Below, in pieces: positions 31,481-57,096 of a stretch of DNA of 64,000 nt. How positions within the stretch are numbered: position 1 is the first letter of the stretch; each line of letters begins with the position of its first letter. The notes beneath the pieces were generated by a model. It saw only the letters and a list, made by a program, of their open reading frames with translations, made no database searches and was not told the DNA's origin. The position numbers and the translations under genes were made by a program. This DNA is from Vitis vinifera (Eukaryota; Streptophyta; Magnoliopsida; Vitales; Vitaceae): the NCBI RefSeq assembly GCF_030704535.1, contig NC_081812.1:23411501-23475500 (forward strand), in the 5' to 3' direction.

Positions 31481-32888
31481 ATCCGTACAATCATCAACCA
31501 CAGCATCGGAGAAGAAAGAAGAAGACTGCCTCCACCCTACTGCAGAAGGAGGGTATAAAATCTTGTTCTCTTTTCCATTTCCCCTTTTTTCTAAGAAAAG
31601 TTTCTAGTAGTTTTTTAGAACTTGTTTTTAAAATCAGGGGAAAAAATGTCTTCGTCCTAATCAACTGAGATTAAAATCCAACACCAAAATTATCGGTGCA
31701 GTGACTTGTTATAGTTTTTGATTTTTTTCGTCTTCTTCTTCTTCTTTCTTCTTTTTGGGACAATTGGAGTTTTCTAAAATTGAAATGTGATTTTTTCAGT
31801 AATTGGTATCGTGGAGGATGAGGATTGGGCAAGTTCTTCCGGTGGAGCTAGCAATTCTGAGATCTATCTTCAAGATGCCAATGATGAAGAAGAACATTAC
31901 TGTATTTCTGGTTCTATATCCAATTTGCAATTTAGGTAGAGCTTTAGAACCAATAGCTCCCATCGAGGTCCAGAATAGTGGTTTTACAACCTAAATGTGT
32001 GTATTGTTTCGCAGCAAAGCAGTTTCCAAGGCGATTTGGAATGATGAGATAGGAATGGCTGCGGTTGTGGAAAAGAAGGGCAAGATATGGATAACAACTG
32101 GAGTAGTTCGAAACAGCAAGACCTATTGCTCAATTGAGGAGACTTTGTATGCGACATACTGACTTTAATGTTTCTAATTCTTGTTTTCTTATTGTTGTAA
32201 TTATTATTTGTTCCTTTATCATTCCTTACATCTCTTGACAAGTGATAATGCAACTACCATAAACCCAATGCAAGTAATTGAGCGAGTCTTTGATTTAATT
32301 CATTTACCTTTTTGAATAGGATGCTAGAGTCTTCCAAACATGAGCTACAAAACAAATCTTAGAGAGCCTAGACATTATGACTACATTGTTGTGCTACCAG
32401 GTAGAGGATGGTCAAGTGGAGGATTTGTTGATGGATGTAAAGCTGGTCAAATAGACGTCTTAGGACACATTAAACATTGTGAATAATCTATCTACTATAT
32501 AACACAGAAAATGTGTATCTACTGGAAACATGGGAAACTTTAGTTGGGGCTTGGCTCAATGTAAATATGGTTTTGAGTATGATATAATTAGTTGCAAGAT
32601 TGCTTATATTTACATCTCACGGAATACTTTTAACACAATGAAAGCTCAAAATAGTATTATTTTCTTTGTAATTTTGTTGGTTTTAGCCATAATTTTCTTT
32701 GGTGCCTTACCAGAGGAAAAAGAATGGCAACGGAAAAAGTAAGCAAAGAGGTCTGTAAACGCTAAACAATGTTGAATTTACCTTACCAAAATTTCAATTT
32801 ATCATGCTGTCTAAATTAGCCAATTTCAGCAAGACCTGAAGGTTATTCAAAAATGCGTAGGGGTTGAAGATGGTAGTACTTACGAAAT

Positions 32889-33240
32889 ATTTTTTTAATA
32901 GGTAAGCAGAATCTGATTAAAGATGCCAAACAGAAAGGAGTTACATCCTATGTACATGGGGGGTATAAAAGAAAACCAAGCAACCTAACTATGTATAGTT
33001 TAGACTGTCAATGAATTCCATCAATTTAAAATTTTCATATGTAAAGGGAATCTAGACCCTTCACAAAGGAACATAATAAGAAACTCCTTTAATTTTTTTA
33101 TTTAAATTCTCTTTCCTTTTAAAACATCGTTTGTGCTGCTCTCTCCAAATGTACCAAGAAGCAAAGGGTGGTCGGACACCAAACCTTCGTTAATTTATCT
33201 AGCCTCCAAAACTTTTAGTCTAATAAAAAGTCTTTGACTA
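32889..33240 (-). mobile_element. L1-type LINE 3' end, shared by both SEN54 copies
   Basis: Minus-strand sequence ends in the L1-like 3' tail and matches 54640-54973 in the other SEN54 arm, in the opposite orientation as expected. Peptide traces are LINE-like (CLFWHIL..) but decayed. Presence at the same place in both copies means it predates the duplication. Confidence 0.72.
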
Positions 33241-34037
33241 AGGAAAAATCCGTTGTCTTCCAAATATATCCAGCAACATTTCCCACAACTGTCTTGTTAT
33301 GGTACAGTCAAAATTACCCTCAAAATGTCTCTTTTGATTGTATATTTCTTATCTAGTAGTATTTGAGAAATATACAATTAAAAAAAAAAAATATCGATTT
33401 TAACTTTTTTTAAGGAGAATTAAATTTTGCTATACGCATACAACAAATTATTCACTTGTGCGATCTTTGAGGAGAAGATTAAGAAGTACTCACTAGTCAT
33501 ACCCTTTTTGTTAGCAATATGCTTAAAGCTTTTTGTGTAGGTTTGTGGCTGAACAAGGAGCATTGCATCTATTGGATGATAATAATGTGACTATTTCCTT
33601 AAAAGGTATATATGATAAGGTTGCACAAGGGAAGTGTGGATGCTTTTGGGAGTCTTTTGAGGTTTATAGGCACTTGAAGTCTCTTGGTTACATTGTTGGG
33701 CCGCATGGGATCCTTTGTACTCCGAAGAGTACCAAAACTTGTTTGGAATCCCATTAGGGCACCCTAGAAGGCAAGGTATGATACATGGAGAATCAAAGGA
33801 TAAAATTTCCATCATAGAACTGGTCAATAATGTGCACATTACTAAAGTTAAACTGGTTTTTGATGTTTATCTTCCTAATAGCAAGTTTAGGAAGTCTTTT
33901 TCGGGTGATCCAAGTATACCATATTTCATCAAGTTTTTTATGGCAATCATTTGTTTCTGGGTTATGTCCAATTTCCTGCTATATTAGATATAGCCATGAT
34001 GTTTTTTCACAAGAAGGCATGTCTAAGTCGTGTTCTT

Positions 34038-34934
34038 TTTTGATAAGTAGGAAATTGTATTAAAAATGCATAAAGCGCACAAGAGTACACTGGGAGTATG
34101 CAATGAGCGTAAAAAACAGAATAAAAAAGGGGGTAAACAAAAACAACTCCTACCCTCAGGAAGGACCCAACCAAACTACACAATCAATTAAGGACAAAGA
34201 ATTCTCATGAATGTACACCTAAATCCACAAAAAAAGATTGGCAAGGAAAGAACTATTAAGACTTTGATCTCACATCTCCTCATCTTCAAACACTCTTCAA
34301 CTTCTTTCCTTCCATAGAGTCTAAAAAATACATAAAGGGGCTGCTCTTCAAGCTTTCTTATGCCTTATTCCACTAGAAGAACTTTGCCACCCTAGTAGGG
34401 TGTCTCATACCGAGGTAGAAACAACCCATGGGATCCCAAATAAAGAGAACACCAACAGCCATAAGATCCTTGCCTTAGCACAATGAAGAAGAATGTGGTT
34501 GATGGATTCCAACTCCACTCTGCAAAGAGCACACCTATTGACTAATGACCGACCTCTTCTTTGGAGTGGTCCAAAGTCAACACCTTCCCCCAACAAACTT
34601 CCCAAGCAAAAATTTTCACTTTAGAGGGAACCCAAAAATTCCGTATAATCCCTATTGGAAAAGGGGTAACACAATCTGGTTTCAACGAGTAAAGGACTCT
34701 TACATAAAATCTTCCTTTACTATATCGCCTTTCCAAACCACTCTATCCTCCTATTCCCTATTCACCGAATGACCTTGCAATTGAAGAAGGAATCTCTCCA
34801 CAAAATCCAACTCCTAATCATTTAGAGTCCTAGCAAAATGGAACTTCCAAGCCCCTCCTCCCTCCTTTTGCTCCCACAAATCTACTACCTACACCTTTTT
34901 AGCGTCGGATAAAGCAAACAAAATAGGGAACATA
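34038..34934 (-). mobile_element. 5'-truncated L1-type LINE inside the SEN54 pseudogene
   Basis: Flanked by a 14-bp duplication TAAGTCGTGTTCTT at 34024-34037 and 34935-34948. The plus strand begins with a T run and TTTGATAAGTAGG, the complement of an L1 3' tail ending ..TATCAAAAA. Minus-strand frames show the C-terminal zinc-knuckle region of plant L1 ORF2 (zf-RVT): VPSKVKIFAWEVCWGKVLTL, then NRCALCRVELESINHILLHC. The element is about 0.9 kb, with several frame disruptions. The intact SEN54 copy has the unoccupied site. Confidence 0.92.
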
Positions 34935-36480
34935 TAAGTCGTGTTCTTGGAAAAGGTACAAAGTTTTTTTCCCAAATGTTGTGTGGTTTAAGAAAAAACT
35001 ATATGTCAAGATATCAATAGATCTTGAACTTTTTTGGAAGTGGAACTCATGCTTGTCATAGCTTTTCATAGTTGTGACAAACAAAAAATATTTCTTAAAA
35101 AACGACTTTGAATGTGAAGGCTACATCAAAATGCATTTTAACTCCAAGCATTACTGAAGTTTTATTACATTCTAGAAGGAAATTATTTTTGGTGGGCTAT
35201 TAGAGTGGTGAATACATGGATATGAATATCCATGTTTCTTTTTTAAAACGTTATTTCCATTAACTTTGTGGAAATTTTCTTAACAATTTGAGAGGGAACA
35301 GTTGTCATCATTGACATCTTTTATGGGTTGACTAATTTGTCCAGCATGAAGAGAAGCATGTTCCTTGTTTGTATTTGAAGCAATTTTCTTACTATGCTTT
35401 CCTTCTGTGTCAAAGAAATTATTTGCATAGCCAAAAACAATGAAAACTTGGAAATAATAAATTCTTCACTTAGTAGTTTCAAATTCTGTTTTCTAATAAT
35501 TTGGACATGTAAGAAAGAAAGCTCAACCATGGTTCTAGTTACACAGAACCTGTTTAAAGCTTTCTTATTCTTTGATGTCACTTAGACTGCCCTATTTGGT
35601 TAATATTTTGATAGGTTGTTAATAAAAAATGTGCAAAAAATAGCCTGAAATAAGCAGGGGCTGTTGCATAATAATAATCAGCCAAGTAACATTTTTTTTT
35701 TTAATTCTCCATGCCTACAGGTCATGCAATGTATTATTGCTCTTTTTGTGCTGTATGTTGATTATAACTCGATTAAAGCACCTTAGGCTTATTTGCTAGC
35801 AGTTTAACATCTTTAGCTGTTAAAAATGGGGGAAACAAAGGAAATTTGGAATGTTACTGTTCCTTGGTTCTTTCTTAAAAGAAGCATTTACTCTTGAAGA
35901 ATACTTCTGAATTAGGCCATAGCTATCATTTCAATGGTCGTTAGAGTTCAGTCATTCATTTCCAAATGCTTCATTTCTTCTCCCTTCTATGCATTTGGTT
36001 GCTTATTATTAACATGTTCTAAGAGCTAAAAATTTTGTTTTCTCACATAGTGGTCCTCCACCATTGAAAGCACAGATTGAAGACCTTTAGAGACAGCGCA
36101 GTGGCGTTCCTTTCAAGTTTTGTCATGTAGCACATGGACAGGTTAGTTTCTTCTCCTTCAGCAGAGTGGAACGGAACTGTTCTGCCCTGACATTCTGGAT
36201 GAAGTTTTATGTGTACAAAATCTGTTAGATTAGTCTAACTAAAATGTAGTTGGAGTTGCCAGAGCGTATCCCTACATTGTGGTGTGTCTTATTTATATCA
36301 GGACAATAATGTTTGCATATGAAAGTCCTTTTTAGAGTGTTTGCACATGGAAAACTATTTGCGAATAACCATGTATTTTATCTCTGTAATGCATAAATCA
36401 TTTACTTGTCAAATGTTTGCTTTGAGAAAATGATCAAGGATATATGAACCTCTTGGTCCCCAATGCAAGCCTAAAATTTT

Positions 36481-37388
36481 TCTCAGAATTGGTCTTTTAA
36501 AAAATATTCAGTTAATTTAAACTTTTATCAGATATTGGTACCTTTGTCTTGTCAAAAATTTCAAAAGGGATAATATTAGCTTTTGTGGGACTTCATCAGA
36601 ATCATAGAAAATAACACTCTGAAGCAGTAAGCTTTTGGCTATTAGCCCTTTTCAGAGTTTAATTGTTCTTTGCAGTTTATAGAGACAAAAAAAAGTTGAG
36701 AACATGATTAGACTTTTAAAGTACTATGAGAAATCAAATCTTAGAAGAAGGATCAGTTTCTAATGGTGAGCTTTATTTAAAAGCAGAAGGAAAAATACAA
36801 GAAGAAGCTTCTCTGCCTAGCCAAATCTTAGATGGATCTGTTGTGTTACTCCTCTAGTCTATTTCGTTTGTCTATTCTTTTTCATTGCATTCATGACTAA
36901 TCATGGTAAAATATTGTACTGATTTGTAAATGAGGTTAGTTGGCTAATTAACAGAATTAATATTCTAGCTAAGGCAAAACTCCATGGAAGCATTATGGGA
37001 CTGAAAAATAACAATAATAACAACAATAGTAGCCATGAACAGGTCTCAATACATTTCCAATATCAATCATTGTATTACACTTAGTGCACTTGTTTTTGGA
37101 TGTTTGCTATAATAAATTTATTCATGATCATGACTTTTGATTCATTTATGTTCTTATCAAAGTACTCAGTATATTGATGGGCACCTTTTTTTTTCCCTTG
37201 TTTTTCTTCATGGCTAATGTTTTTTATTTTCTTTATTGCACAGAGTTTGAACATGGAACCTCTCCCATTCTCATCTCTATCCCTTGCCACTTGAGCAAGT
37301 CTCAAGGGCTATGCTGAGAAGATCTTTACCAAACTAGCATTAGGTCTGAATTCAAAAAGATTACTATTGTCAATTTTTGGAAGCTTAT
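36481..37388. other. Spacer beyond the duplicated SEN54 segment
   Basis: No gene seen. Near 37200-37310 the plus strand has a phrase (TTGCCACTTGAGCAAGTCT) of the kind seen in degenerate plant retroelements. Boundaries could not be set. Confidence 0.4.
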
Positions 37389-37936
37389 TGTCATGACTTG
37401 CTCAAATGGCCCTCCCTTGAGCTTATATAGGTGAGTGGGAAGTTTCTAAAACCTTGGAGTCATCTACACTAGTGGAAGAGTGTGGAAGGTTCTGGAGAGA
37501 CTTAGAGATGTTGACACATCTCTACACTATGGTGGAAGACAAGGGAAGAGTATGGAGCTATCTACAAAGTTCCAGAGGTCTCTTGTAAATACTTTTAAAT
37601 AGTCTATGTATAGAGAATTCTAGGATAGTGGGGAATCTTTGGGGGTTCTAGGGAGTTCCACTAGTGCCTATAAATAGGCGAGGGCCTCATTTGGCCAAGA
37701 CATCACTCAAATCACCTCCTAACCAAGCAAGTGAGCTTCCAAATCATTATAAAACATCCTTTGAGCAATAAAAACTTCCTTTCTTTAAGTGTCTTTTGTT
37801 CTCGTAGCTTCCAAGTCATGTGTCTAATTTAGCCTAACTAGCTAAGGACAAGGGGAAGGCTAAGTTAGCAACATCAAGCGTCTTGAAGTTGTCTAACTAC
37901 CGCACATGAGCTTAGGAGAAGCCTAAGTCCGTGACA
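37389..37936 (+). repeat. Probable solo LTR, ~548 bp (fossil)
   Basis: Begins TGTCATGACTTGC and ends GTCCGTGACA, so the ends form the TGTCA..TGACA inverted pair typical of LTRs. TTAT flanks both sides (37385-37388 and 37937-37940). It contains CTATAAATAGG near 37667 and AGCAATAAAAAC near 37763, a plausible LTR promoter and polyadenylation region. No internal domains adjoin it, so it looks like a whole solo LTR. Family not assigned. Confidence 0.62.
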
Positions 37937-37940
37937 TTAT

Positions 37941-38828
37941 GCATTTATTAAATATGTTAGAAGAATACGGTTTGTATAACTAAAGGCTTAGAGATTTGTT
38001 TATTAGATAGCTTAGCCTAGAAATGATCTTATGATCCATTAGGGGCACATATCCGTTGCAATAAAGAGACTGTTGGAACAAATTGCAGAGTCATTTTCAT
38101 GAAGCTCATTATGTGCTCATTGTGTGGCATTCCTTCTTTGTTCTTTATGGTTTTGGCAGAGAAGGGTTTGCCTTGTTCTTTTCTTCCAACCTAATTTCAG
38201 TTATAGACATTGTAGTGTCTGACCAAGTCTCATTGTCTCAACCTAGTGGCCTATGGAATGTAGTGGCCAGACTGAAGATTAGAGTGCTTTGGCAAGACTT
38301 TTCCATACCTGGAGCAGTAAGAAAATCATTACTCTAGAGGTCATTTTCTAGATTTGGAGAAGTTTGTTGCCCAGTTCATCACCAAAGCATTGCAAGCATT
38401 ATGGAGAAAGTTCTTATATCTCTAATAGTTTTAAGTAAGATTTGCAATTTAACTACTCAATCCAAGTTTTTTTTCTCTTTTTAACTTTTTTTTTTTTTTT
38501 CCCTCTCAAATTAAAGAAGGTTAATAAGGAGAGATTTGTAAAGCTATTCTTATATTTTAACCTTTTCTGATCCTAGGAGAGCCTTGCTTTGTTGATTGTC
38601 AATCCCTTCAACCTGAGAACTGTAGTCACAGGGATTCACACACACATACACATTGCACACATTCATCCCCAGATAAGTAAGAGCTTGCGCACACTTACAA
38701 AATGATTAATTTCAATAAGTGAAGTGTATTTTGTAGTACTGATTTTCATTCAATTTATCAGAAGATTTGAATCTAAAGAAGACAATTCTAAGGTAGGACA
38801 TTTTTTGCTTCAATGTGACAAATAAATT
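37941..38828. other. Spacer 3' of the UGT pseudogene
   Basis: No gene recognised. A CA/AC-rich stretch lies near 38637-38665 (CACACACACATACACATTGC). Confidence 0.45.
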
Positions 38829-40230
38829 TATCTGCTAATATGAGCAATGAAAGAATCCAACTCCATGCAAGAAGCCCCTCTGTCATCCATTGACCTCCAG
38901 ATGGCACCACCCAATTCCACAGCCCTCTTCCTTATGTCATTGCCTTCTTTTGATGCCATTAATCTTCTTAGGGCCTTTTCAATTGTAGACGATGTAACTA
39001 GTTCTTCCTGATGTTCCCATTCTCTAAAAACTAGACCAACTTTGAGCAATTAGGTTACTAGCAGACTGTTCTGAGGCTGGTCCGAGTGCATTGGCCATGC
39101 TGCTATAGGGACCCCCATGGTAATGCTCTCCATGCATGAGTTCCATCCACAGTGACTCATGAATCCACCAGTAGACACATGCCCCAGAATTTCCAGTGGG
39201 GGTGCCCAGTCTCTCACAACCATTCCCAGTCCCATTGCTTTCACTCTCTCTTCTTACCCTTGAGGAAGTTCAGCTCTCCTGACTTCTCCAGTAAAAATAT
39301 CTCCTCTATAAGCATCCCTCAACACCCAGATAAACTTTTGCGCACTCTGTTCTAACCCAATAGCTAGCCCTTTGATCTGGTCATCAGAGACCGAGACAAA
39401 TGTTCCAAATGAAATGTGTACTACAGATTGTGGATCTTGTTTATCTAGCCATTCCAAGCATTTATCCGGGCTATTTGAGTTCCTATGCCGGTAGATTGTT
39501 ACTGGGTTTAGTGGTCCAATTGCCCATTGCTTCTTGTTTCCATTCATCTGTTCATTAGCTAATATATCAATGTGAGTACCTTCTGTTATCTGCATGTGTT
39601 GTAGAGATCTCCAACTGCAGTTTTCGCAAACTCATATTGATGAGCAGAGAAATTCATGATCTCAAAGGTGAAGCAAGGATGGAAGCTCGTCAGGTATTTC
39701 TGCTGCTGGTGGGACAGTTTTTCCCAGGGCTTCCCACAAGTAGGTGAAAACGGAAAAAGCAGTGCGCAGTGGAACCCATAGGCTTCAGCATTTGGGATTG
39801 AAGTAGCATCCCAAACAACAGAGGCTATAAGAGGGTCATGGATGATAATCATTCTTTTGGTTGTGGGAGAGAGTGCGCTGACGGGTTGGCGAAGGTGCAT
39901 AGAGGCTTCAATGGATGGCTGAAGGTGTGCAGAGCATTTATTGGAGGAGTTGGGGTTGGGAGGAGGAGAGACGAAAGGAGGCATTGAGAAGTCAAGGAAA
40001 TGGATTTTAGTATTGTCCATAGGATTCAAGCCATGAGCTCGAAGCTTGACCTGCCGATTATGTACGGCGGACCATTTGTAGTGAACTTGGATGTTATAGG
40101 ACGAGATGAGGTGGGACAATTGCAAGAACTGGTTGAGATGACCTTGTGCTGGTAAAGGCAACATGATTACAACTACTGGAGCTCGTCTGCGGCCATCTTG
40201 GTCATGATTTTGATGATGGTAATGCTGCTC
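38829..40230 (-). pseudogene. Zeatin O-glucosyltransferase-like pseudogene
   Basis: Minus strand, aligned with the two intact neighbours from VVVIMLPLPAQGHLNQFLQL to ELDSFIAHISR. The acceptor-deprotonating His (PAQGH) and the UDP-sugar (PSPG) block are readable: [20 protein letters not shown], then [20 protein letters not shown]. Lesions: no in-frame ATG before the APVVVIM start region; frame change near 39590 after DLYNTCR; stop at about 39256 after RAELPQG; stop at about 39050 after NSLLVT. Several segments are shorter than in the intact paralogues. It is the most 3' member of the tandem series. Confidence 0.92.
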
Positions 40231-41453
40231 AGCTATTGATCAAACTTGGGAAGGTATCTACTTCTTCACGGAATAAGGAAATAGGTTTTGGATTTTGGTT
40301 GAAATCCCAAAATGTATTGACCACTGACCAACTTGACTTTTAGTGTTGCCCCCATTTCTTGTCTTGACATTTTTGTCCCGTAATATGGTATAAGCATATG
40401 ACTCTTGTTCATGATAATATATATCATTGAGTTTTGAAAACGAAATTGCATGGCTCTTGCATCATTATTCATATCTACATGGTGGAGAACTTTAGTTTTT
40501 TCGATGCCTACGAAACCTTGAATAAATTTTGACAAGAACAGAGTAAGAGCAGAAGAACCCACGTGGCACTTAAGCTTTTGGGTATTTTGAAAGGTTCATG
40601 AATCCACTGCAAAGAATTGGGAAGTGCTAGGAAAGCTCTAAATTAGCTTTTGAATCTTTGTGGTGATGTGTATTTGGACGCATAGTAGATTAGGACCCCA
40701 CTCTCACTGTGTCACCAGTGGCACAAAGAACCCACTGTGTAGATTAAATATATTAATGCCTGGTCTTAAGGTGCTCAGGCTATTAGTTAGCACTTAGCAG
40801 CACCTTCTCAATACCACTTACCTAGTGGCATAAAATATCTGTCATCTGTACTCAGCACTAGACTTTATGTCAAAGGCTTGTATCCACAACTTTCCATATT
40901 TGGAATTTTCAGGCATCAGTAGGTCATTCAGTTAGTAAGAAGAGAACTTGTGCAAGCCTCATTAATCATCAAATCAAGGAACAGAAGGCCCATTTTGTTT
41001 TGTTAGGAGAAAGCTTGTTTTAAATCCGAATTGATCGTCCAAGTGCTGTAGGAACCCTTCATGCTGTCAAATTAGGAGGGGTTCTGAGAACCTACATTCG
41101 AATAAAATAATAGGTTTTTTTGTTTTTTTTCCAACCTTATTTTAGTCACACTAGATTAGTAATGAAATTTTGACTTATTCTGAAAATAATTTCCCTTTTT
41201 ATTAATAGTGTCTTTTTCTTCAGCATTTGGACCTGTAGCTAGGCTGAAGCGGACTTTCAAACCCCTTAGGCCGGCCCTCACCGTCATCATTCAATATTTA
41301 GGCTGAAAACATTGTATGCTGCATTAGTTTATTTTGGAGAAATCCCGAGACATCCTTGGCTTAAAAAGACAACAAAAGCTAAAAGAATGGGTGATGAATT
41401 TGGATGACATCCTAATGCAGGGGCACACACGCAATCCACCAGGGCAAACCAAT
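40231..41453. other. Spacer between the UGT pseudogene and first intact UGT
   Basis: No gene seen. Presumably holds the old promoter of the pseudogene and the 3' flank of the next UGT. No repeat ends recognised. Confidence 0.45.
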
Positions 41454-42875: not shown

Positions 42876-42939
42876 TCCCAGACTCGCAGAGGCTTGTGGC
42901 TGTTGAATCACTATGAGGTTTGATCTGCCTCTTGCCCAG

Positions 42940-42947
42940 CTTTTATA
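42940..42947 (-). promoter_or_regulatory. TATA box of the first intact UGT
   Basis: Minus-strand TATAAAAG, 65 bases upstream of the preferred ATG at 42875. This placement argues against the upstream ATG at 42995. Confidence 0.68.
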
Positions 42948-43833
42948 AACAAAAAAACAAACTTCCCTTGGAGATAAAGATGATACTATTTTCAATGGAA
43001 TTTTCTCCTGTATGACAAAGCAGTTAATGACATGCCACCGATTAGTCTCCCAATTTTGTATCTAATTAATCATCTGGTTCATCACATGTCATGTGAATTG
43101 TTTTTATTATTTTGCAAACTTACTATTCTTCCTCTTCAATATTAACATAATTATTAAATTAAAGTAATTAAATAAATATTGAGATTCGAGATCTTAAAGG
43201 TTTGACCATGGTAGTAAAGGGTTATTTTCACAAAAAAGAAGAAGAGAAAGGACTCATTGTTTGGGATCTTGTAAGTTGTCTTGTTATTTTGTATGTATGT
43301 TATGTTGTTTTGTATCTTGATATTAATATTTTATATTTTGATCTCCTAATTGGATTGGGAAATGGTCTAAAATTTTCCTTATCTTGTAGCAAAATGAAAG
43401 CAGAGCTATCCGTCCACCTTTCATTTTTGTTCATTTGGTAAGTATATAATATTTATTTGGATTTAGAAATGGTATAATAATCTTCAAAATACCTATTATG
43501 GTGGGAAAATTTCCTTGTATAATGTTATATACCAAAAAATGAACGTCAAACCATTTTAAAATAGGTGATTCCCAATCAAGCCAATCCAATCTGCTTTCAA
43601 AAACCGAGGACATGACAAATCACTACCTCCCAATTTGTTTTATGCCACATGTTGCCTAGTTTCTCTTTTCCCAATCACACTTCCATGATATCCCCCGTTA
43701 AGCCCAGTGGGTACGTTTCGTAATATATATATGAAAAAAATGATCTAAAAATTAGGAACCCAAATACCCATTTGGCCTTTCAAAATACTGTTAGCATTTT
43801 CTTAGTTACTCAAGGAAAGAAAGACGAAAACCC

Positions 43834-43864
43834 AAAAAAAAAAAAAAGGGGGGGGGGGGGGGGG
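43834..43864. repeat. A14 followed by G17 homopolymer run
   Basis: Fourteen A are followed directly by seventeen G, then AAGGGGAAAAG. Runs of G this long are rare in plant DNA and are error-prone in sequencing. Confidence 0.9.
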
Positions 43865-44649: not shown

Positions 44650-44990
44650 AAAAGCGAAGAGGGAAGGGCCCAAAGAAAGACTGGACCACCATGTGTTGTC
44701 CAAGGAAAGGAGTGCTCAGGAGATAAGTAGCAGCCAGCTCTGCCAGTTATTCACTGCCCCACAAATGCCATGAAGTCTTTGGACAGTGACACAGTGTCCT
44801 CCCCTTTCCACACAATTGACATTCCAGTAATCAGTCACCACCAAAATTCCCTTTCTTTTTCTTTTTAATTTCCTGAATCTTGCTTCTTCTTTTCCCCCTC
44901 TCTGTCTTGCCTTGGAATGATAGAAATTCCTACTCGTCCACTTAATAAATAGAGTCCCAATGCACATGAAGCCAAGTGCCTGGTTAACCT
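44650..44990. other. Block resembling the region upstream of the next UGT
   Basis: Shares GAGATAAGTAGCAGC(C/A)AGCT(C/T)TGCCA, and with similar spacing a CCATG..TCT, (A/G)CACA(G/C)T(G/C)T(C/T)CTCCC and (A/G)CATTCC series, with 50330-50700. Each block lies 1-2 kb 5' of an intact UGT. Open frames here are not convincing as genes. Probably part of the UGT duplication unit. Confidence 0.4.
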
Positions 44991-47830
44991 AATCACCCAC
45001 CAAAGCAACCATTGTGATTCACTTTAAAGCTTCACGCCTTCAACCTCTCCTCACAATCAAAGACTATCCACTTTGAAAATAATTTTCTAATTCACCTGTT
45101 ATGTTTCCTTTTTAAGCAATTTGTACTGCAATTATATTGGTTTTTGAAATAAATTAAGTGTTTTTTTTATATTTTATAAAATATTCTAAGTAATTACTGA
45201 AAATACAAAGAATGTTTTTAAAACTTTTGCATTATATGTATGTATACGAGTATAAGGGCTTCTAAAAGACCCTGGTGATTTTCTTTGCTGATAAATTTTT
45301 TATTTATTTTTATAATACTTTATAATAACTAAAAACATCTTAAATTTATTTTATCAAAAAATTATTGTGAATAAAAAATTTGTCAAACTTGTATGCTAAA
45401 TTAGAAATTATTATTTTTTCATTAAAGAATAAAAAAAATATTCTAAAAATAACTATCAAATAGATCATGGAGAATAAATGATAGGTTTGAAATCAATAAA
45501 TTTTGTTAGGTTTTTTTTTTAATTTATTTTTTCTATATATATATATATATATATATACATTGTATTTTTTGTGGTAAAGAAATTAAAAAGAAATTGGTGA
45601 GAAATTTTCAGGAAAAGAGAAGATAAATGAGTAAATGAAAAAGAAGTAAATCCAAACAGTTGACATCAAGGTAGGAATGGGGGGGAAGAATCCTTGACTT
45701 GTAAAGCACGTTAGGAGAGCAGGCAAAGTGGGTTTACAGATCACATGCTCATTGTCCATTGTCTCCTCTTTGCCATTTCTTGAACTCGTCCCTTTAACAT
45801 CCCATCTTCCTTTTTCATTTCTCTAATCAAGGAAGGAGGATATTCTGAGCCTTCAGTCATCATTGGAAAGTGGAAACTACTTTTTAAAATATTTTTTTGT
45901 TTTTTTTTTTTAAAAAAAGAAAACATATTTCACAATAACAAAATAAAAAACACTTTTATACTTTTTGGCTAATATTTTTAATTATTTTCACTTTTTTTTA
46001 AGCTTTAAAAAATAACTATAAAACTAGGAAGAATAATTAAAATTAAAGTTTTAAAATAAAATTATTTTTAAAATATATTAAAAAATCATAAGAAGTAGTT
46101 AACAACATCTCAAATTAATTTTTATTTTACAAAACATCAATTAATAGTTTTTAAAAATTATTTTTTAAAATATTTTTCAAATGTGAATGTGTTTGAAAAT
46201 AATTATTATCAATTTAAAAAAAAATAAAAGTCTATTTAAAAATTCAAATTTTAAAATTAATTTTTTAGATTTATTTTTTTCATAAAAATATTATATATTT
46301 ATATATTACATAAAAGTTTTAAAATATTATTTACTTAAAATACTTCAAAAATAAATTAAAAAATTTAAATTTATTATAAAAATTATTATTTTTCAGAATA
46401 ATTTTTTTTTAAAAAAGTTGTGTTATATTTAAAAAAAACAAAAAATTATTTTCAATAATACTTTTCAAACACCCTACATCTTAGAGGTAGTTGTTGAAAT
46501 GGGAGCAAACCCATCATTCAATGGGTGATGGTGGAGGAAGAAGATTTACTATAAAAATAAGTAAAAATTGTCTCCATCTTGGTTTAGAGTCGGTGTTTCC
46601 TACTGGGCTGAGAGTGAGACCCACCAGTGATGTGCTGTGTCGCCTAGTCCTGGATTTGGGACAGGCCTAGCGATAGTACAAATGAGTTGTGTGTCTCAGT
46701 GCATTTAAGTCAAATGATTGATACCTTTCTTCATTTTATGCCAACTTATCCAACAAAAGATTCCAACCTTCACTTTCAGGCCACCCAACCACAATATCCA
46801 AACTAGAAGAGTACAAATAATGACACGTGGCATCATCTCATTTGTGGTATCTTTTATTTGTAATAATCAATAACTTATATCATTCTACTTTTGATAAATT
46901 AAGACCTTTTCAAAATATAACTTGTTTTCAAAATAATTTTTTTAGAAACCTATTTTTAATTTAAAAAAATGGTCAAAAACATGCTTTTTGAATTAGAAAA
47001 CTGTTTTTAAAAGAATAATAAGAGAGAACTTATATGAACCACACTCGTAAAAAATTAAAGGTTTATTTCACAACATTTTCAAAAATAATTTGTAAAATTT
47101 ATTTTTTAAAATAATTAGAAATAAAGTTTTTAGCATAAAGATTAGATTTTTCAAACATATCCATGATGAAAATACATGTAAATAGTTTTAGTATTAATAT
47201 TTTCTTTTAAAAATAAATTCCTTCTACAGCCTTAAGGGTGATCCATTAGGAACCCCGAAAAATGTATTTTCACTGCCTTGTTTTCTCTTTCTATTAGGCT
47301 TCCCATGGCTCCAAAAGTTGAAGTTTCTCTCCATCTCCAGCCGTCAAAAGAGTTGAGGTTGTTGGAAAAAACCTCAACTTCAACATTAATGATGAGTGAA
47401 AAAAGTTAAATAAAAAATATAAGGAAGTATTTGACAAGACAAAATTTCAAGTCAATAATGATGAGATATATTTAACCTAAATATAAATCAAAATTTTTCT
47501 TTTTTAATTTCCTTTGTTATATATTATATAAGAAAAAAATAATTTTGTTATGTATTCTATTTATCAGCCATTGATGTAGAAAATCATTTTATAAAAAGTG
47601 CTTCTACCCTGTTCAAATCACTTTAAAAGTAGGTTACTGCCCACAGAGGATGGTGGTGAAATTAAGACCAAAAGTCAGTTGATCCCATTTCTGAACTCTA
47701 TGTTCTTACTTCTTTAGAAGTAGCATATTAATAATCAGATACTTGTAAAACATCTACTTATTTTAGAGAAATTCTTAGGCCTCCTTGCCTAATACAGGGT
47801 GAGAGTTGATCACATTGTAAAATGCCGCCA

Positions 47831-49276
47831 TCAGAAGCCAAGCTGTCTAGTGATGTGAGCAATGAAACCATCCAACTCCTTGCGAGAAACCCCACCCTCT
47901 TCCATTGACCTCTGTAGGGAGTTCCCTAGTTGTTGTGCTTTCTTCCTCATAGCGTTTCCTTCCTCTGATGCCATGAGCCTTCTCACTGCCTTTTCAATGG
48001 CAGATGCTGCCACCAGCTGCTCCCTCTCTGCCCACTCCTTAACAGCCAGACCAACTTGGAGTACTTGTGTCACCAGAGCAGCGTTTCTTGGCTGATCCGA
48101 GTGCATGGGCCATGCTGCTATGGGCACTCCCATGCTGATGCTCTCCAGGCATGAGTTCCATCCACAATGGCACATCAATCCACCCGTGGAGCTGTGCCCC
48201 AGTATCTCCAGTTGGGGCGCCCACTCTCTCACCACCACCCCCATTCCTGTCTCCTTCATTCTCTCTTCATACCCTTCTGGAAGTTCACTTCTCCTGACTT
48301 CTTCGCTGAAAATATCTCCTTTATCCGCATCTCTCAATAACCAGATGAACTTGTGCCCACTGCGCTCCAACCCAATCGCCAGCTCCTTGATCTGTTCATC
48401 TGTCAGTGAAGTTGAGGTTCCAAAAGAAACCAATAGGACAGACTTTGGAGCCTGTTTGTCAAGCCATTCCAAGCATTTGTCCCCAGGATTTGATGTTTTG
48501 TCACTGTATGTGGTCACCAGGTTGAGTGGCCCTAATGCCCATCCCTTCTTTTTCACACCATCAATCTCCTCTTCCCGAAGTATATCCACATAGGGGCCCT
48601 CTATCAACTTGGATGTGTAGTAGAGGTTCCCAGAGCTGAGCTTCTTAAACTCATGCTGGAAAACCAAAAATTTGAAGAACTCCAATGTGAAGCAGCCGTC
48701 CAGAGATGGAACATCCTCTGGAATTTTGACCCCCTCCAGCGCAGGTCTTCCCAGACTTTCCCAGAAGAAGAAGAAAATGGAGAAAACGGAGACACTGTGA
48801 AAAGTGTAGGACTCAGCATTACCAATACCCACAAAATCCTGAACCACAGAACCCATGAGGGAGTCATTAATCACAATGAGCCTGTCAACTGTAAGAGAAA
48901 GCTCACGTAGAAGCGCAGCAACAGGCTCACGAAGCTCTGAAGATGCCTCAAAACATGGCTGCAGATGAGCAGGAAATTGCACAGAGGCATCAGGATCAGG
49001 AGGAGGAGAGTGAAAGTGAGGAGTTGGGAAGTCATGAAAATGAAAATTAGGCTCCAGAAGAGGGTCCCAACCCTGGAGTCTGAGCTTGGCTTGGTTGATG
49101 TGGGTGGCAGAGCCCACATAGTGGACTGGTATGTTGTAGGAAGAGATGATGCGAGAGAGTTGCAGAAGTTGGTTTAGATGGCCTTGCGCTGGAAATGGCA
49201 CCATCACCACAGCCACATGGGGGGCTTCTTTCACCCCATTTTCCTCATGGTTTTGCTGATTTTGATCTTCACCCAT
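47831..49276 (-). CDS. Zeatin O-glucosyltransferase-like UGT (UGT93-type), second copy
   Basis: Intact, intronless, 481 residues, starting MGEDQNQQNHEENGVKEAPH. An ATG 45 bases further upstream overlaps the TATA box and is rejected. His33 in FPAQGHLNQ and Asp138 in LIVINDSLMGS are the expected catalytic pair. The PSPG box begins WAPQLEILGHSSTGGLMCHC and ends SDQ at about residue 395. It differs from its neighbour by CHCGW in place of SHCGW and by a C-terminal QLGF extension. Same probable role, O-glycosylation of zeatin-type cytokinins, with substrate not proven. Close similarity, orientation and shared intronless structure show tandem duplication. Confidence 0.93.
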   Translation of the reverse strand: MGEDQNQQNHEENGVKEAPHVAVVMVPFPAQGHLNQLLQLSRIISSYNIPVHYVGSATHINQAKLRLQGWDPLLEPNFHFHDFPTPHFHSPPPDPDASVQFPAHLQPCFEASSELREPVAALLRELSLTVDRLIVINDSLMGSVVQDFVGIGNAESYTFHSVSVFSIFFFFWESLGRPALEGVKIPEDVPSLDGCFTLEFFKFLVFQHEFKKLSSGNLYYTSKLIEGPYVDILREEEIDGVKKKGWALGPLNLVTTYSDKTSNPGDKCLEWLDKQAPKSVLLVSFGTSTSLTDEQIKELAIGLERSGHKFIWLLRDADKGDIFSEEVRRSELPEGYEERMKETGMGVVVREWAPQLEILGHSSTGGLMCHCGWNSCLESISMGVPIAAWPMHSDQPRNAALVTQVLQVGLAVKEWAEREQLVAASAIEKAVRRLMASEEGNAMRKKAQQLGNSLQRSMEEGGVSRKELDGFIAHITRQLGF

Positions 49277-49319
49277 TGTAAACTTGTATATGATTATTGC
49301 AATGAAGCCTGAGCTTTTC

Positions 49320-49327
49320 ATATATAA
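49320..49327 (-). promoter_or_regulatory. TATA box of the second UGT
   Basis: Minus-strand TTATATATGAAAAGC, about 45 bases before the chosen ATG at 49276, implying a very short leader. Confidence 0.6.
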
Positions 49328-49329
49328 GA

Positions 49330-52281
49330 AAAGAAAATAAGGGTTGCATTGGAGACAAGAGGATACATAACATTTCCATTGATGCTCTTTTCCCCTTAGA
49401 TAAATTAAGCATTTAATGATTTGCCAACAGACTTTCTATATATATATATATATTTATATATATATCATTTAGTTTTTAATTGAATCAAATTTTCATACTC
49501 ATCTCATGTTGTCATTAGACAAAGTCTCGAAACTTCAACCCTCTCTCCTTTTTAACATCAAAATAAATAGGAAGGGACAGTGTGTGAGCTCTTTCATTTG
49601 GAAACAGCAATGAATGCCATCCCCCTTTTACCTTTTCATTTTTGTTGATTTCATAAAATGGAAAATATATATAAAATAGGATACTGGCTTTAAAATGTTG
49701 AAAATTATTAGTGTTTTACCCTACAATCCAAACACTCCTAAGAAAAATCATTAAATATTTGGCCTTTATAATCCATGTTTTTTTAATACTGCATTGTATA
49801 ATTAAAAAATGATTTTTCGAGGAATTAGTTGTAATTTTATTGTTTCAAATTCACTTGGAATATTTTTTTTTAATCTTAAAAGTGATTTTTAAAGGTTTGA
49901 TAAATTAATATCATATTTCTACAAGAAATTGTTTTTAATTATTACAAGGCATTTTTAATCCCTTCAAAATCATTGTTTTTTCAACTTGATAAATTAAACC
50001 TGGTAAAACTTCTATCATTAATCCAATTGGGTGCCTTTGAAAATGATAGTAGAAACCGATCTCAAAGATCCACTTGACCTTTGAAAAAAATATAGGATTT
50101 TTTTTTTTAGACAGGAAAACAAGGAGAAAAGAAGTGATATATAATTCAATAGTATTTTAATTAAAAATATTTTAAATAGAAACACCGTCAAACAGTATAA
50201 TATTAAGGTTAATCCATGAGTAAAATCAAACATTTGATGAGCGTCAAGATTGTATAGGAAGAGAAGTTCCCAACTTTTATAAAGAATCGTGTAGACATCA
50301 GGAAAGCTGTAAATCTAAAATAGGCAATATAGACGATGTAGTTTGAGTGTGTGACGTGTGGGGGACAAACTGGGGCCCAACCACAACATCATTTCCAAGT
50401 GTTGACTAAGAACGACAGTCAGTAGCTTTGTCACATGGTTGATGAGATAAGTAGCAGCAAGCTTTGCCACTTCCAAAATATTTCTTTTCTTGTCCACTCC
50501 ATGCAATCTAACATGAACAAATGGGAGAGTGGCACACTCTTCTCCCATTTCCAGTAGGCATTCCCCGACCTTGACACCTGTGGAATGACAAGATTGCCAT
50601 GTCTGAAGAGACCAAGGCACTGTGGGAGCACTAATGACACTCAACATCAAGGAAGGTTACAAAACAAAAGAGGGCGTGCAGCTTCCACTTGAGCAAGTGT
50701 AGGGACGCCCAAAATGGGCCATGACCGAACTGGCCTAATCCGAGCCATACAATTGCTCCTTTCTCAAAAACACGTATCATCAGAAAAGAGTAGATCATAA
50801 TAACTTGTTCCTCAAACAACCAAGTAGGTGTCAAGATAATGGCCGATCTCTCTTCTTAGCTTGGGACTTCCACCCTGGGCCCACCGCCCACTGCATCCAA
50901 AGGTTGTGTCAGGCGTGGATGAAAATGCCTGGATATTTTGTCGAAATATCGATAGAGGTGGACACGCCGATTATCCGTTTGGAAAAATTGGTAAAATCAT
51001 CTAAATATTGTCGATTTATTGATTTATCGATGATTTCTCGACGCAACATGTGCATGTGGAAGGAAGAAAATAGGTGATTAATCGCCAAGAAACCAGGCGA
51101 TTTATCAGTGATTTTTCAAAAAAGCCCATTTTAAAACAAATTTATCCTAATTTTTTTAATTTATATTTTATTTTAAATTTATATTACCCTTTGTTTATTT
51201 ATTTTTTATTATTTTTCATATTTATTTCATTAATCCTATTTTAAAAAATTACCATCACTTAACTTTTATTTTTTTATATTTATCCTTTTAATTTTATTCA
51301 ATTTTAAATGTTTTTATTTTAAAATATTAAAAATATAAATTTATTACAAATTTGCTCAAATATAAAAAATAATAATAATAAAGTTCCAATATTTTATAAA
51401 TTAAAATTAATTTGATAAGATAAATTATTAATATTATTTTTAATAATTTTAATTATTTAAATTAATTAATGTTTATAGAAAAAAATTATCACTATAAATT
51501 TATAATAAAACTTTAAAAATTAAATCCCAAATAGAATATTTTATATAAATCGATTTAATTTTATATTTAAAATGTAATAAAAACATGTTTTAATAAAAGT
51601 AGTTTTTAATTTTTAAAATAAATGAATATAAATGTATTAAAAGAATTTAAACTAATTTTTTCTGGAAAAAATTTTTTTTGATAAACACTATCTTTCAATG
51701 TACCTATGTCAATTACCAAAATAACTTTAATATGTATATTTTTATTTATTTTATGATAGTGTTCTACTCAAACATATATCCTTTTGGATATAATATAGGT
51801 ACCAATATATCCATGTTTACTAAACACTTGGTGCCAGGACTAGTTTCCAATTTCCGGGAAGCCAAACAATGATATAAGTTTTGGGCCAGGTCTAATGGCT
51901 GGGTATAAAGAAAAGATGGAGTTAGCAGCCCAATAGCCAGCCCATGGAGTGAGGGATGCTCAGTTTCAATGTGTTTGATAGGGTTATCCAACATCATGAG
52001 ATTTTGATTATGTTGCAGAAGAGTCCAAAAATTTAAAAATGGGAAATGAAAATTCACTGCTTCAATTATGATGAAGTCCATTCGCAGGCGTCTAATATCA
52101 CCCCTTCTGAAATTTTGGAGAAGACAAAAGGCATATTAACATGGACGAAAGTTTGAGTAAACTGGATATTTTTTACAGGACCTTTTCCTCAGGGACCAAC
52201 GGTTTTCCATGTCCTACCATGTTGATAATGTTCTCAAAGCAAACATCATATTTTGTACACCTTAAAGTTCATCCAGATTGT
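49330..52281. other. Spacer between the second UGT and SEN54
   Basis: Holds a TA microsatellite (49438-49465), the UGT-upstream-like block (50330-50700), a GATATTTTGTCGAAATATCG repeat-like stretch near 50930-51110, and AT-rich sequence to 51760. The part 51880-52280 includes sequence alignable with 36230-36480, the far end of the SEN54 duplication. Frames found at 50315-50834 and 51764-52081 match no family I know. Confidence 0.5.
50330..50700. other. Second copy of the UGT-upstream block
   Basis: Pairs with 44650-44990 (see there). It begins about 1.05 kb 5' of the UGT start at 49276. Confidence 0.4.
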
Positions 52282-55200
52282 CTACGGTAGAACAGGAAGT
52301 TCCACTCTGTTGAAGGAGAAGAAACTGACCCGTCCATGCGATACATGGAAAAACTTGAAAGGTATGCTACCACACCGTCTCTCAAGGTCTTCAATCTCTG
52401 TTTTCAATGGCGGATGACCCCTATGTCAGAAAACAAAACAGTTCAGTTTTTAGAACATGTCAACAATAAGCAACCAAAAGCATACAAGGGAGAAGAAATG
52501 AAGCATTAGAAAATGAAAAGACTGAATTCTAATGACCATTAAATGATAGTTATGGCCTAATCCAGAGGTGTTTTCTTCAAGAGCAAACACTTCTTTTTAG
52601 TTATAAACCAAAAGAATGGTAACATTCCAAATTTCCCCATTTTAACAGAGCTAAAGATGTTATAAAATGTCAGCGAACAAGCCTATGGTGCTCCAGAGAA
52701 GTCATAATCAACATAAGAGCACAAAACGAGCAGTAAAGCATAGCACAACCTTAGGCATGAAGATTTTTTTTTTTATATATAAAAAAAGTTATTTGGTTGA
52801 TTATTATTATGCAACAGCCCCTGCTTCTTTCAGACTACTTTAACCTATCAAAATATTAACCAAACAGGGCAGTCCAGGTGACACCAATACGAGTTCTGTG
52901 TAACTAACTAGGACCATAATTGATCTTTTCTTTCCTACATCTCCCAAATCTTGGAAAACAGAATTTGAAACTACTGAGTGAAGATTTGTCATTTCCAAGT
53001 TTTCACCGCTTTTGCTATGCAAATAATTTCTGTGAAATAGAGGGAAAGCATAGCAAGAATCTTGCTTCAAATACAAACATTTAGCATAAGGAGCATGCTT
53101 CTCTTCATGCTGGAAGAATTCATCACCCCTTAAAAGATTTTAATGATGGGAACTGTCCCCTTGCAAATTTTTAAGAACATTTCCACAAAATTAATGGAAA
53201 TGACATTTTAATAAAGAAACATGGATATGAATATCCAATTAATCACCACTCAAATAGCCCACTAAAAATAATTTCCTTATAGGAAGTAGTAAACCTTCAG
53301 TAATACTAGGAGTTAAAATGTACTTTGATGTATCACAACTATGAAAAGCTATGACAAGCATGACTTCCACTTCCAATAAAATTCAGCATTTATAGATATC
53401 TTGACATATAATTTTGTCTTAAACCACACAACATTTGGGAAAAAAACTCTACGCATTTGTCAAGAACACAACTTAAACATGCCTCCTGAGAAAAAAACAT
53501 CATAGCTACATCTAACATAAGCGAAAATTTGAACATAACCTAGCAAAAAATGTTTGTCACAGAAAACTTAATGAAATACGGTTTACCTGGTTAAGCAGAG
53601 CACAAAACTTGGATCTCCTGGAGAAGACTTCCTAAACTTGCTATTAGGAAGATAGACATCAAAAAGCAGTTTAACTTCAGTAATGTGCATATTATTGACC
53701 AGTTCTATGGTGGAATTTTCTTCTTCTGATCCTTCATCTGTTCTACTGTTGCCTTCCGGGGTGCCTTGATGGGAATCCAAACAAGTTTTGGCACCCTTCG
53801 AAGTCCAAGGGATCCCATGCCGCCCAACAATGTAACCAAGAGACTTCAAGTGCCTATAAGCCTCAAAAGACTCCCAACAACATCCACACTTCCCTTGTGA
53901 AACCTTATCATATATACCTTTTAAGGAAATAGGCACATCATTATCATCCAATAGATGCAATGCCCCTAGTTCAGCCAAAAACCTACACAAAAAGCTTTAG
54001 ACACATTACTAACAAAAAAGGGTATAACTAACAAGTACTTCTTAGTCTTCTCCCCAAAGATCACACATGTGAATAATTTGTTGTATGCCTATAGAAAAAT
54101 TTAGTTCTCCTTAAAAACTACATGAAAGGTTAAAATCAATGTCTTTTTTTTTATTGTATATTTCTCGAATACTACTACGTAAGAAAGATACAATCAAAAG
54201 TTGACTTTAAGTTAAATTATACTTAAGTTGTTAACTTAAAACTTACTATTTAATTTTACTTTTAAGTATTAAAATTGTTTGATAAAATTAACTTAAGATT
54301 TATTCTAAATCATCAAATTAACATATTTATCTTCATAAATTATAACTAGTGCAAAGGAGCTCGAGTAATAATGGAGGTGGTGGAATAGTAAATGAGATCA
54401 TAGAGTTAACCAAGGCAAATAGGGGTAAAAGAGTAAAATGAAAATGTGGAGTTGAGAATAAGTTAATTGTTTTTACTTATTACTTAAAGTTGTTTTTTAC
54501 TTTAATTCATACCATTAAGTTATTTTACCAAACATACTTAGTTTACTTATTAACTTAAATTAAGTTATTAAGTTAATTAGTTTAAGTTATTAAGTTGGTT
54601 TACCAAACACCCACTTAGTCAAAGACTTTTTGTTAGGCTATAGACTTTGGAGGCTAGACAAAGTAAGAAGGTTTGGTGTTCAACTCCCCTTTGCTTGTTT
54701 TGGCACATTTTGAGAGAGCAAAACAATCATGTTTTTAATAGGGAAGAGATTTCAAATTAAAATTTAAAGGAGTTTCTAGTTATGTTCCTTTGAGAATGGT
54801 CTCTTTAGCTATGAAAATTTTACATTGATGAAATTCATTAACAATGTTAACTGTATATGGTTAGGTCACTTGGTTTTCCCTTTTTTTTTGGTGCCCCTGT
54901 GTATAACCCCTTGTGTACATGGGATGTGACTCCTTGTTTGTCGCCTTTAATCAGATTCTGCTTGTCTGTCAAAAAAATACTTCTTAAGTACTAATAGGTT
55001 CAACTCCAACACATTCTGGAATAAACTTCAAGTTTTGCTGAAACCGGCTAATTTAGACAACATAATAAATGGAAATTTTGCTAAGTTAAATTTTTTTTTT
55101 TTGATAGGTGAAATTTTGCTAAGTTAAATTACGCATTGCTTAGTGTTTACGTTACTCCTTTGCTTACTCTTTCTGTTGCTTTTCTTTTTCCTCTGTCAAG

Positions 55201-56022
55201 GCACCAAAGAAAATTGGGGTGCAAAACAACAAAATTACAAAGAAAATAGAACCATTTTCAGCTCTCATTGTGCGTTAAAAAGGAATTACATGAGATATAA
55301 ATATTAGCAATCTTGTAAGTAATTATATCATACTCAAAATATTAGCAATCGTTCACAATGTTTAATGTGTCTAATGGTGACTATTTGACCAACTTTAAAT
55401 CCATCAATAAATCCTCCACTTGACCATCCTTTACATGGTAGCACAACAATATAGTCATAAGTCTAAAACTGTGGTTGCACAGCTGTCTAGGCCATCTAAG
55501 GTTTTTTTTCTAGCTCCTATATGGAAGACTCACAATAGCATCCTTTTCATAAAGGTAAACATATTAAATCAAAAGCTCGCTCAATTACTCATATTGGGTT
55601 TGTGGAAGTTGCATTATCACATGTCAAGTGATATAAAGAATGGCAAAGGAACAAACAATAAAAAAAATTATGAGAAAACAACAATTAAAATCAAAGTCTG
55701 CAAATCTCATACAGAGTCTCCTCAATTGAGCAATAGATCTTGCCGCTATGAAGCATTCCTGTTGTTGTCCACATTTTGCCCTTCATTTCTACAACCTCAG
55801 CCATTCTCATTGCATCATTCCAAATTGCCTTGGAAACATCTTTCCTGAGAAAAATACACACAATTAGGTTGTAAAGTGCCCATTTTGAAACTTGATGGGA
55901 GTTATTGTTCTAAAAATCTACCTAAATTGTAACTTGGATATGGAACTAGAAGTATAGTAATGTTCTTCTTCATCATTGGCATCTTGAAGATAGATTTCAG
56001 AATCACTAGCTCCATCCTCCAT
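52282..56022 (-). CDS. SEN54: tRNA-splicing endonuclease subunit SEN54
   Basis: Four coding exons, 56022-55922, 55844-55713, 53982-53587 and 52420-52282, join in frame with GT-AG borders to give 255 residues, close to plant SEN54 length. It begins MEDGASDSEIYLQDANDEEE. Conserved blocks are DVSKAIWNDAMRMAEVVEMK, then FLAELGALHLLDDNDVPISL, KCGCCWESFEAYRHLKSLGY, then IVGRHGIPW, and the end VSFFSFNRVELPVLP. SEN54 is a structural, non-catalytic subunit of the heterotetrameric endonuclease that removes tRNA introns. A further exon at about 56329-56224 (MTRQLLIWKN..) can splice in frame onto exon 2 and would add 39 residues; the ATG at 56022 is the conservative start. A non-coding leader exon ends at 57097. 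The dead duplicate lies at 31490-36480 in opposite orientation. Confidence 0.93.
54202..54616. repeat. AT-rich insertion private to the intact SEN54 arm
   Basis: About 415 bp rich in TTAAGTTAA-type words, ending TGGTTTACCAAACACCCACT. The SEN54 pseudogene has about 110 bp of unrelated sequence between the same landmarks (GTCTTTGACTAAG and TTTTGATTGTAT). It resembles a MITE, but clear terminal inverted repeats were not found. Confidence 0.6.
54640..54973 (+). mobile_element. L1-type LINE 3' end, shared by both SEN54 copies
   Basis: Counterpart of 32889-33240. Ends GATTCTGCTTGTCTGTCAAAAAAA on the plus strand, preceded by CCCTTGTGTACATGGGATGTG, the usual L1 3' UTR style. Coding traces are decayed. 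Confidence 0.72.
55091..55109 (-). mobile_element. Minimal L1 insertion: tail only, with target-site duplication
   Basis: The core is a T12 run plus GATAGGT, the complement of an L1 3' end (ACCTATC followed by poly-A). It is bounded by direct repeats GAAATTTTGCTAAGTTAAA at 55072-55090 and 55110-55128. The duplicate SEN54 arm (about 32770-32800) has a single copy of this site and no insert. Confidence 0.8.
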
Positions 56023-57096
56023 TATATCAATTGCTGATAAAAATCACAGTTCAATTTTAGAAATCCAGTTGTCTAAACAAGCAACAAGAAAAAGAAAGGA
56101 AAATAAAAAACAATATAAGAAGTCACTGCACCAATAGTTTTGGTCAAACTTGCAGAATTTTAATATTGAAAAACTTTTTCTTTAAAAAGAAAACAGAAAA
56201 AGAAATGAGAAAAGATTCTGTACCCTTGTTCTGCATGAGTAGTGACACACTTTTCTTCTTTCTCCTCCAATAAGGATTAAAGCTTTGCATTGAATTGAAA
56301 TTCTTCCAAATGAGCAGTTGTCTTGTCATTGTGACTTATAACTTCATCATCAAACCTATCTATGACTCATCCAACGATGGGCTTGTGTGTTAATCTGATA
56401 CTCCATCAAATCTTTTAATCTCCATGTCACCAAATTTTTTAATTTTACTTCCTTATCCAGAGATGATTTCTAAGTTCCCACTCAAGCTTCTTCTATTCCA
56501 CTTCAGAGATTATTTGTAAAATAAAAATATTATTCTAAAAAATTTTTAATGCAAGATATTGGATTATTCTTTCCTGTGCCAATAATCTCATCATGTATAA
56601 TATATAATAACACTAATTTACCTTTTTTTCTGCAACCAATCCCATTTACTAGAAGATATGATAACTCAATCTCAAAGATGGGAAAGTTCACAAATAATGA
56701 CACTTATTCACTTTAATTTATCATTTTAAAATTCTAAAATATATAATTTTACTTCCTCGTACCCCTCATTTTAAAGAATAGTATAGGAATGAATCATAAA
56801 TCCTTGTATCATTCCACATATCGTCTGAGAAAAAAGAGAGGCACAAATGATGAACATGTTCCCAAGACCCTCTAAGCCAAATCCAAAATTGCATTCCTTA
56901 TCATCACTTTGCCCTTCTCCCAATGATACAATGATCTAGTGGATCGTACCTCAATTGATCCTCTCCATAGAAAAACAGCCTTAGCCGACTCTAAATCATC
57001 TCTTGCAAGAAGTTCAAATATCACAACCATCTTTATCATCGTACGACTTACTAGAAAGGTAAATCTTGAAAAACAGAAACTATTGAAATCCCATAC

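Follow-up and report, generated by a model that had tools for sequence, protein, structure and literature searches.

Organization of the SEN54 Locus

The 64,000-nucleotide window analyzed here (Vitis vinifera, NC_081812.1, positions 23,411,501 to 23,475,500, within contig 8 of an assembly of 21 contigs and 495.6 Mb) contains two copies of SEN54 in opposite orientations, an intact, living gene on the minus strand and a copy on the plus strand that reads as dead. From left to right, the gene order in the window is GT61 (minus), TFIIB (plus), the dead SEN54 copy (plus), three UGT copies (minus), the living SEN54 gene (minus), and Nup93/Nic96 (minus). The two SEN54 copies lie within the following arms.

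52002–56271, minus strand: living arm (52065–56144 by BLAST, with the ends extended by local alignment)
52282–56022, minus strand: intact SEN54 gene, 255 amino acids; exons 56022–55922, 55844–55713, 53982–53587, and 52420–52282
31505–36694, plus strand: dead arm (31683–36602 by BLAST); exon counterparts 31811–31935, 32015–32146, 33541–33913, and 36051–36189

The living gene is composed of four exons with GT-AG introns and an open 255-residue frame. It contains the N-terminal domain tRNA_int_end_N2 (PF12928, E 1.3e-15, 57.7 bits against a cutoff of 24), and residues 39–252 align to the solved TSEN54 chain 7zrz (E 2.3e-18), so that the C-terminal half is covered as well. As predicted from the family, the product should be the Sen54 subunit of the tRNA-splicing endonuclease. 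In a protein search of the genome, in which all 10 candidates were scored, the nine matches all fall inside the two arms, and in a DNA search with 59 matches, all those outside the arms hit a repeat in intron 2 (40 of 2786 candidates scored). The minus-strand copy is the only intact SEN54 gene found by genome search, and a literature search for SEN54 in Vitis returned no match.

Self-BLAST of the window resolves the duplication into four main inverted collinear blocks, 31683–32483/56144–55352, 32571–33242/55339–54614, 33331–34037/54200–53462, and 34935–36224/53475–52247, with 75–83% identity and E values of 5.8e-143 or lower, and a fifth block, 36491–36602/52182–52065, with 74% identity and an E value of 1.7e-10. 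Local alignment adds 31505–31697/56271–56130, with a score of 113 compared with a mean of 49 (standard deviation 8, maximum 75) for 100 dinucleotide shuffles. Upstream of 31505/56271, no similarity above shuffles is observed: the score between 31200–31504 and 56600–56272 is reached by 25 of 200 shuffles, and that of a second test by 164 of 200. At the far end, a weak match extends to approximately 36694/52002 with a score of 39.0, reached by 0 of 200 shuffles (best 38.5); a test that takes in the full next kilobase is at shuffle level. The arms are arranged tail-to-tail, ~15.3 kb apart (36694 to 52002), and ~190 bases near 36226–36415 are present in the dead copy only. The arrangement proposed in the first-pass annotation, an inverted SEN54 duplication with exons and introns in matching order and UGT genes enclosed by the arms, is recovered in the alignment of the arms, with three UGT copies in the spacer.

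Lesions of the Plus-Strand Copy

The reading frame of the plus-strand copy is interrupted at three codons.

31811–31813, plus strand: lost start codon, ATG to GTG
33755–33757, plus strand: in-frame TAG in the exon 3 counterpart
36088–36090, plus strand: in-frame TAG in the exon 4 counterpart

Both TAG codons also appear, one in each exon counterpart, in the protein search of the genome. In addition, the exon 3 counterpart has a 1-bp deletion near 33774 and a 22-bp deletion after 33913, and the C-terminal end is scrambled. The death of this copy, as claimed in the first-pass annotation, is thus borne out by the lost start codon, the two in-frame stops, and the two exon deletions. A deleted splice donor had also been reported; the 22 bases lost after 33913 are exon sequence, with GTATAC still next, and all six splice sites examined in this copy are still GT or AG. 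With the parental introns kept and disabling lesions in the frame, the plus-strand copy is, as judged from its sequence, an ordinary duplicated (non-processed) pseudogene, for which the best reading is that it has no function.

Divergence of the Arms and Mode of Duplication

In the high-scoring blocks, noncoding identity is 84.8% with a divergence K of 0.171 (2410 columns), a value that may be low since these blocks omit the least similar stretches, and exon identity is 86.6% with a K of 0.150 (744 columns). The full MAFFT alignment gives a K of 0.21 for intron 1 and 0.28–0.29 for the other two introns, with the four exons at 0.11–0.30; the intron values of 0.28–0.29 were set aside because they are inflated by misaligned stretches. 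The closeness of noncoding to exon identity argues for duplication at the DNA level. Similarity over exons alone, the pattern named beforehand as evidence against such an event, is not found. Each of the three introns aligns with roughly the same identity as the exons, which, as the first-pass annotation had argued, refutes the proposal that the plus-strand copy is a retrocopy of spliced mRNA and leaves it with practically no probability.

By the block measure, the exons are scarcely more alike than the introns, and coding constraint has thus probably been weak in one copy or both for most of the time. The pairwise dN/dS of 0.70 (bootstrap 0.47–1.05) was calculated with 9 of 256 codons dropped as gapped and three stop codons set aside. 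The value fits a history in which one copy was hardly constrained in its coding sequence; it is to be read with the reservation, unfavorable to weak constraint, that misaligned last codons of exon 4 raise dN.

The presence of one gene twice in a single interval would also fit an assembly artefact in which two haplotypes were joined. The divergence of ~15%, the opposite orientation, the differing insertions, and the unrelated flanks of the arms make this explanation highly improbable.

Insertions That Distinguish the Two Copies

Each copy has an insertion that is absent from the other arm.

54198–54617, minus strand: dispersed repeat of 420 bp that has lost one end, situated in the second intron of the living copy
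34038–34934, minus strand: 897-bp antisense LINE fragment within the third intron of the dead copy (zf-RVT, E 1.3e-7, one 71-residue piece)

The 420-bp repeat has full-length matches of 82–87% identity on many contigs (a lower bound, with 40 of 2786 candidates scored). All three members fetched continue ~35–45 bases past the right end, and the stretch common to them scores above shuffles; their left flanks have no match beyond shuffles. In two of the three (L007 and L008), the extra stretch ends in a mirror of the left end, and the repeat of the living copy is without it. Since the members continue where the living copy does not, the repeat was inserted into the living copy and later lost one end, rather than having been deleted from the dead one. 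The internal deletion that had been ascribed to the plus-strand copy is accordingly replaced by an insertion in intron 2 of its partner. At the same position, ~85 bases of the dead copy have no counterpart in the living copy. The LINE fragment is flanked by 14-bp target-site duplications (34024–34037 and 34935–34948), and by this sequence evidence its entry into the dead copy is placed after the SEN54 duplication.

Taken as a whole, the locus very probably represents an inverted, DNA-level duplication of SEN54 with a living minus-strand copy and a dead plus-strand copy, a judgment that covers the event and the state of the copies, with the polarity weighed separately below. A DNA segment of ~4 kb carrying SEN54, from the 5′ leader to past the 3′ end, would have been duplicated in inverted orientation between TFIIB and Nup93. 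The minus-strand copy would have stayed intact, and the plus-strand copy would have lost its coding capacity, gained the LINE, and drifted as an ordinary duplicated pseudogene.

Polarity of the Duplication

The two copies differ at their 5′ ends. In the dead copy, the start is followed by a 24-bp stretch of N-terminal reading frame with no equivalent in the living copy. The 5′ flank of the dead copy, between TFIIB and the leader, has an observed/expected CpG ratio of 0.95 in one 200-bp bin and of 0.74 in another, and only three CpG are found in the living copy from 56600 to 55401. CpG that are private to one copy number 10 in the dead and 1 in the living copy in the 5′ part (p 0.012), with the arms split at 55350, a point picked after the profile had been viewed, and with small counts; in the rest of the arms, they number 17 and 22, respectively (p 0.52). 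At the gene starts, TFIIB has a ratio of 0.93 and the dead copy one of 0.71, compared with 0.07 at SEN54. The pairing of the 24-bp reading frame and CpG-rich leader of the dead copy, beside TFIIB, with a CpG-poor living 5′ end is the new observation here. An earlier remark that no promoter evidence is seen needs to be changed with respect to this CpG-rich flank, although the flank is suggestive only. Two candidate promoters are proposed.

31200–31599, plus strand: candidate ancestral promoter, formed by the 5′ flank and leader of the dead copy, which are rich in CpG and pyrimidines
57001–57300, minus strand: candidate for the promoter now used by SEN54 and for its leader exon, with TTAGGGTTT at 57168 and a GT donor after 57097

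In the second region, CpG is high again at 57200–57001, where a telo-box-like string and the GT donor are found; the strings are labelled here after the site II and telo box motifs. An ATG in the putative leader before 57097, if spliced to 56033, reads into the SEN54 frame (a chance of 1 in 3). The 24 bp and the CpG pattern suggest that the ancestral site and promoter are those of the dead copy, with the living copy a daughter that now starts near 57.1 kb, a reading with even or marginally favorable prospects.

Along with the late choice of the split and the small counts, several points weigh against this polarity. Other gene starts in the window also have low CpG ratios (EF-hand, 0.28; GT61, with a guessed start, 0.46; the UGTs, 0.21, 0.19, and 0.38, the last of these broken), and among 400-bp windows the flank of the dead copy is at the 88th percentile, below AT-rich repeats. 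The TGGGCY and telo-box strings are short, with 42 and 8 matches, respectively, in 22000–64000. Either a loss from the living copy or a gain by the dead copy may account for the 24 bp. In rice, offspring duplicates reportedly run the greater risk of becoming pseudogenes (PMC7318451).

The opposite polarity, with the same duplication, would make the dead copy a promoterless daughter of the minus-strand gene that came to lie downstream of TFIIB, where it died. Such a history matches the usual fate of rice offspring copies (PMC7318451), the end of the arm inside the leader, and the promoter-like segment 1 kb upstream of the living copy. Because low CpG is common at gene starts in the window, the weight for an ancestral dead copy is lowered and that for a dead daughter is raised. 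A dead daughter leaves unexplained the CpG-rich leader at the 5′ boundary of the dead copy, the 24 extra coding bases, and the one-sided 5′ CpG difference, and we regard it as a serious possibility that falls short of an even chance. If instead the dead copy is ancestral, a fuller history can be sketched, although it is unlikely in all its parts: the housekeeping function would have moved to the inverted daughter with a captured promoter, possibly with an in-frame chimeric N-terminus, and the parent would have died on its own promoter, from which it may still make a noncoding sense RNA.

The segments at 56643–57157 and 58864–59344 form a 0.5-kb promoter-like inverted pair with 67% identity, the only two copies found in the genome. 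In the right copy, a short frame is still open, with an ATG at 58853. A dispersed transposon was considered for the segment at 56.6–57.2 kb but is not supported, as only one further, local copy was found.

The UGT Spacer and the Hairpin Proposal

The spacer between the arms contains three UGT copies.

47834–49276, minus strand: intact UGT, 481 amino acids (PF00201, E 5.2e-20 for the enclosing frame), 75% identical to the 473-residue UGT93-like gene
41457–42875, minus strand: intact UGT93-like gene, 473 amino acids (PDB 8znk, UGT93BB1, E 5.2e-175 for the enclosing frame 41457–43061)
38831–40218, minus strand: broken UGT copy with stops and a frame change, 48–59% identical to the 473-residue gene

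UGT93BB1 (8znk) is the closest solved relative, with the next best match at E 4.5e-54, in a PDB search of one of the three UGT copies (41457–43061). The spacer also contains a dispersed repeat at ~37370–37950, the source of 42 of the 43 matches listed in one genome search.

The first-pass annotation had raised the idea that the arms could act as a hairpin or antisense source. Exact 21-mers are common to the arms at 112 positions, 67 of them in SEN54 coding exons, and the longest exact run is 40 nt, so pairing is possible in principle. In rice, complementary small RNAs have been described for 38 gene-pseudogene pairs, and in 21 of these pairs the two members are <10 kb apart (PMC2708354). The arms are tail-to-tail with ~15.3 kb between them, however, and a single RNA joining them would need to run through the UGT genes, whereas in rice hairpins were evaluated for paralogous pairs within 2 kb (PMC2708354), a spacing far exceeded here. 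In addition, RNA transcribed from the dead copy in its native direction would have the same sense as SEN54 RNA. Regulation of SEN54 by small RNAs fed by RNA of the dead copy, alone or as a read-through hairpin, is not supported by these features and appears very unlikely.

Neighboring Genes and Other Features

The following genes flank the duplication.

11842–13209, minus strand: GT61 glycosyltransferase frame
From 24345, plus strand: TFIIB
61376–63867, minus strand: Nup93/Nic96 (Nic96, E 1.5e-13 for the frame 61376–61747)

The frame 63526–63867 has no Pfam match, and its Nup93 label was given by eye. For comparison with Arabidopsis, we take At3g57360 to be SEN54; this tag was not found in a literature search on Arabidopsis gene tags. 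At3g57350 is a listed Nup93 candidate (PMC2674657), At3g57370 is the TFIIB-related BRP4 and adjoins At3g57380 (PMC4036515), and At3g57380 is a GT61 member (PMC12579940). If At3g57360 is SEN54, the ancestral order would be Nup93, SEN54, TFIIB, GT61, a comparison of these four genes that leaves aside the window genes between GT61 and TFIIB. Such an order would mean that the inverted SEN54 copy and the UGT genes were both added inside an old interval.

The TFIIB segment 23435–31101 is itself duplicated on contig 17 (19778719–19785505), with ~90% identity over the aligned columns, introns included, and a K of 0.109 over 6038 columns, coding and noncoding pooled. A rough comparison of divergences suggests that this duplication is younger than that of SEN54. 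The contig-17 duplicate ends ~400 bases short of the dead SEN54 arm. It was considered as a source of an outgroup SEN54 and rejected, as the similarity ends at window position 31101 (50 kb fetched); apart from that, the contig-17 region matches the intron-2 repeat over 144 bases and other parts of the window in short stretches, and a protein search of the genome finds no SEN54 near it.

Elsewhere in the window, approximately six tandem copies of a 171–172-bp unit are found at 16528–17558, with 94–97% identity between shifts. A ribosomal protein S2 frame at 21387–21947 (PF00318, E 4.7e-36) is possibly an organelle-derived insertion, and a remnant of a Copia-type reverse transcriptase lies at 2–1195 (RVT_2, E 1.9e-44 for 2–655; the remainder by eye). 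An AT-rich palindromic repeat at 5952–6305 has weaker relatives near 46139–46458 and 51155–51659. No tRNA genes are found in the window by ARAGORN with bacterial settings.

Relation to Known Duplications

The kind of event described here is well known and ordinary. Similar to the SEN54 pseudogene, rice non-processed pseudogenes keep their introns, lie near the parent, and are disabled by stops and indels, and many of their parents also belong to singleton families (PMC2708354). Here, in contrast, the copy is inverted, a gene cluster lies between the copies, and the dead copy is maybe the ancestral one. The GluB4-GluB5 glutelin pair of rice Lgc1 likewise consists of tail-to-tail inverted copies on one chromosome, where a 3.5-kb deletion between the genes causes silencing (PMC10647759). 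In the Vitis locus, the ~15.3 kb remain and the arms are ~85% alike. A microRNA arising from an inverted duplication would need one short foldback transcript, and none is evident here. The inverted-duplication model of microRNA origin shares with this locus an inverted copy of a protein gene (PMC3237417). Parent and offspring copies in rice are also separated and meet unequal fates (PMC7318451), but there the offspring tend to die, and here the proposed survivor is the offspring. The mild and testable twist of the locus is that, of the two copies, the original may be the dead one.

If this polarity is false, the locus would still provide a useful annotation of one SEN54 gene and one pseudogene. 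If it is true, the locus would be a readable record of how a housekeeping gene acquired a new position and promoter by being duplicated locally in inverted orientation, contrary to what usually befalls the daughter copy.

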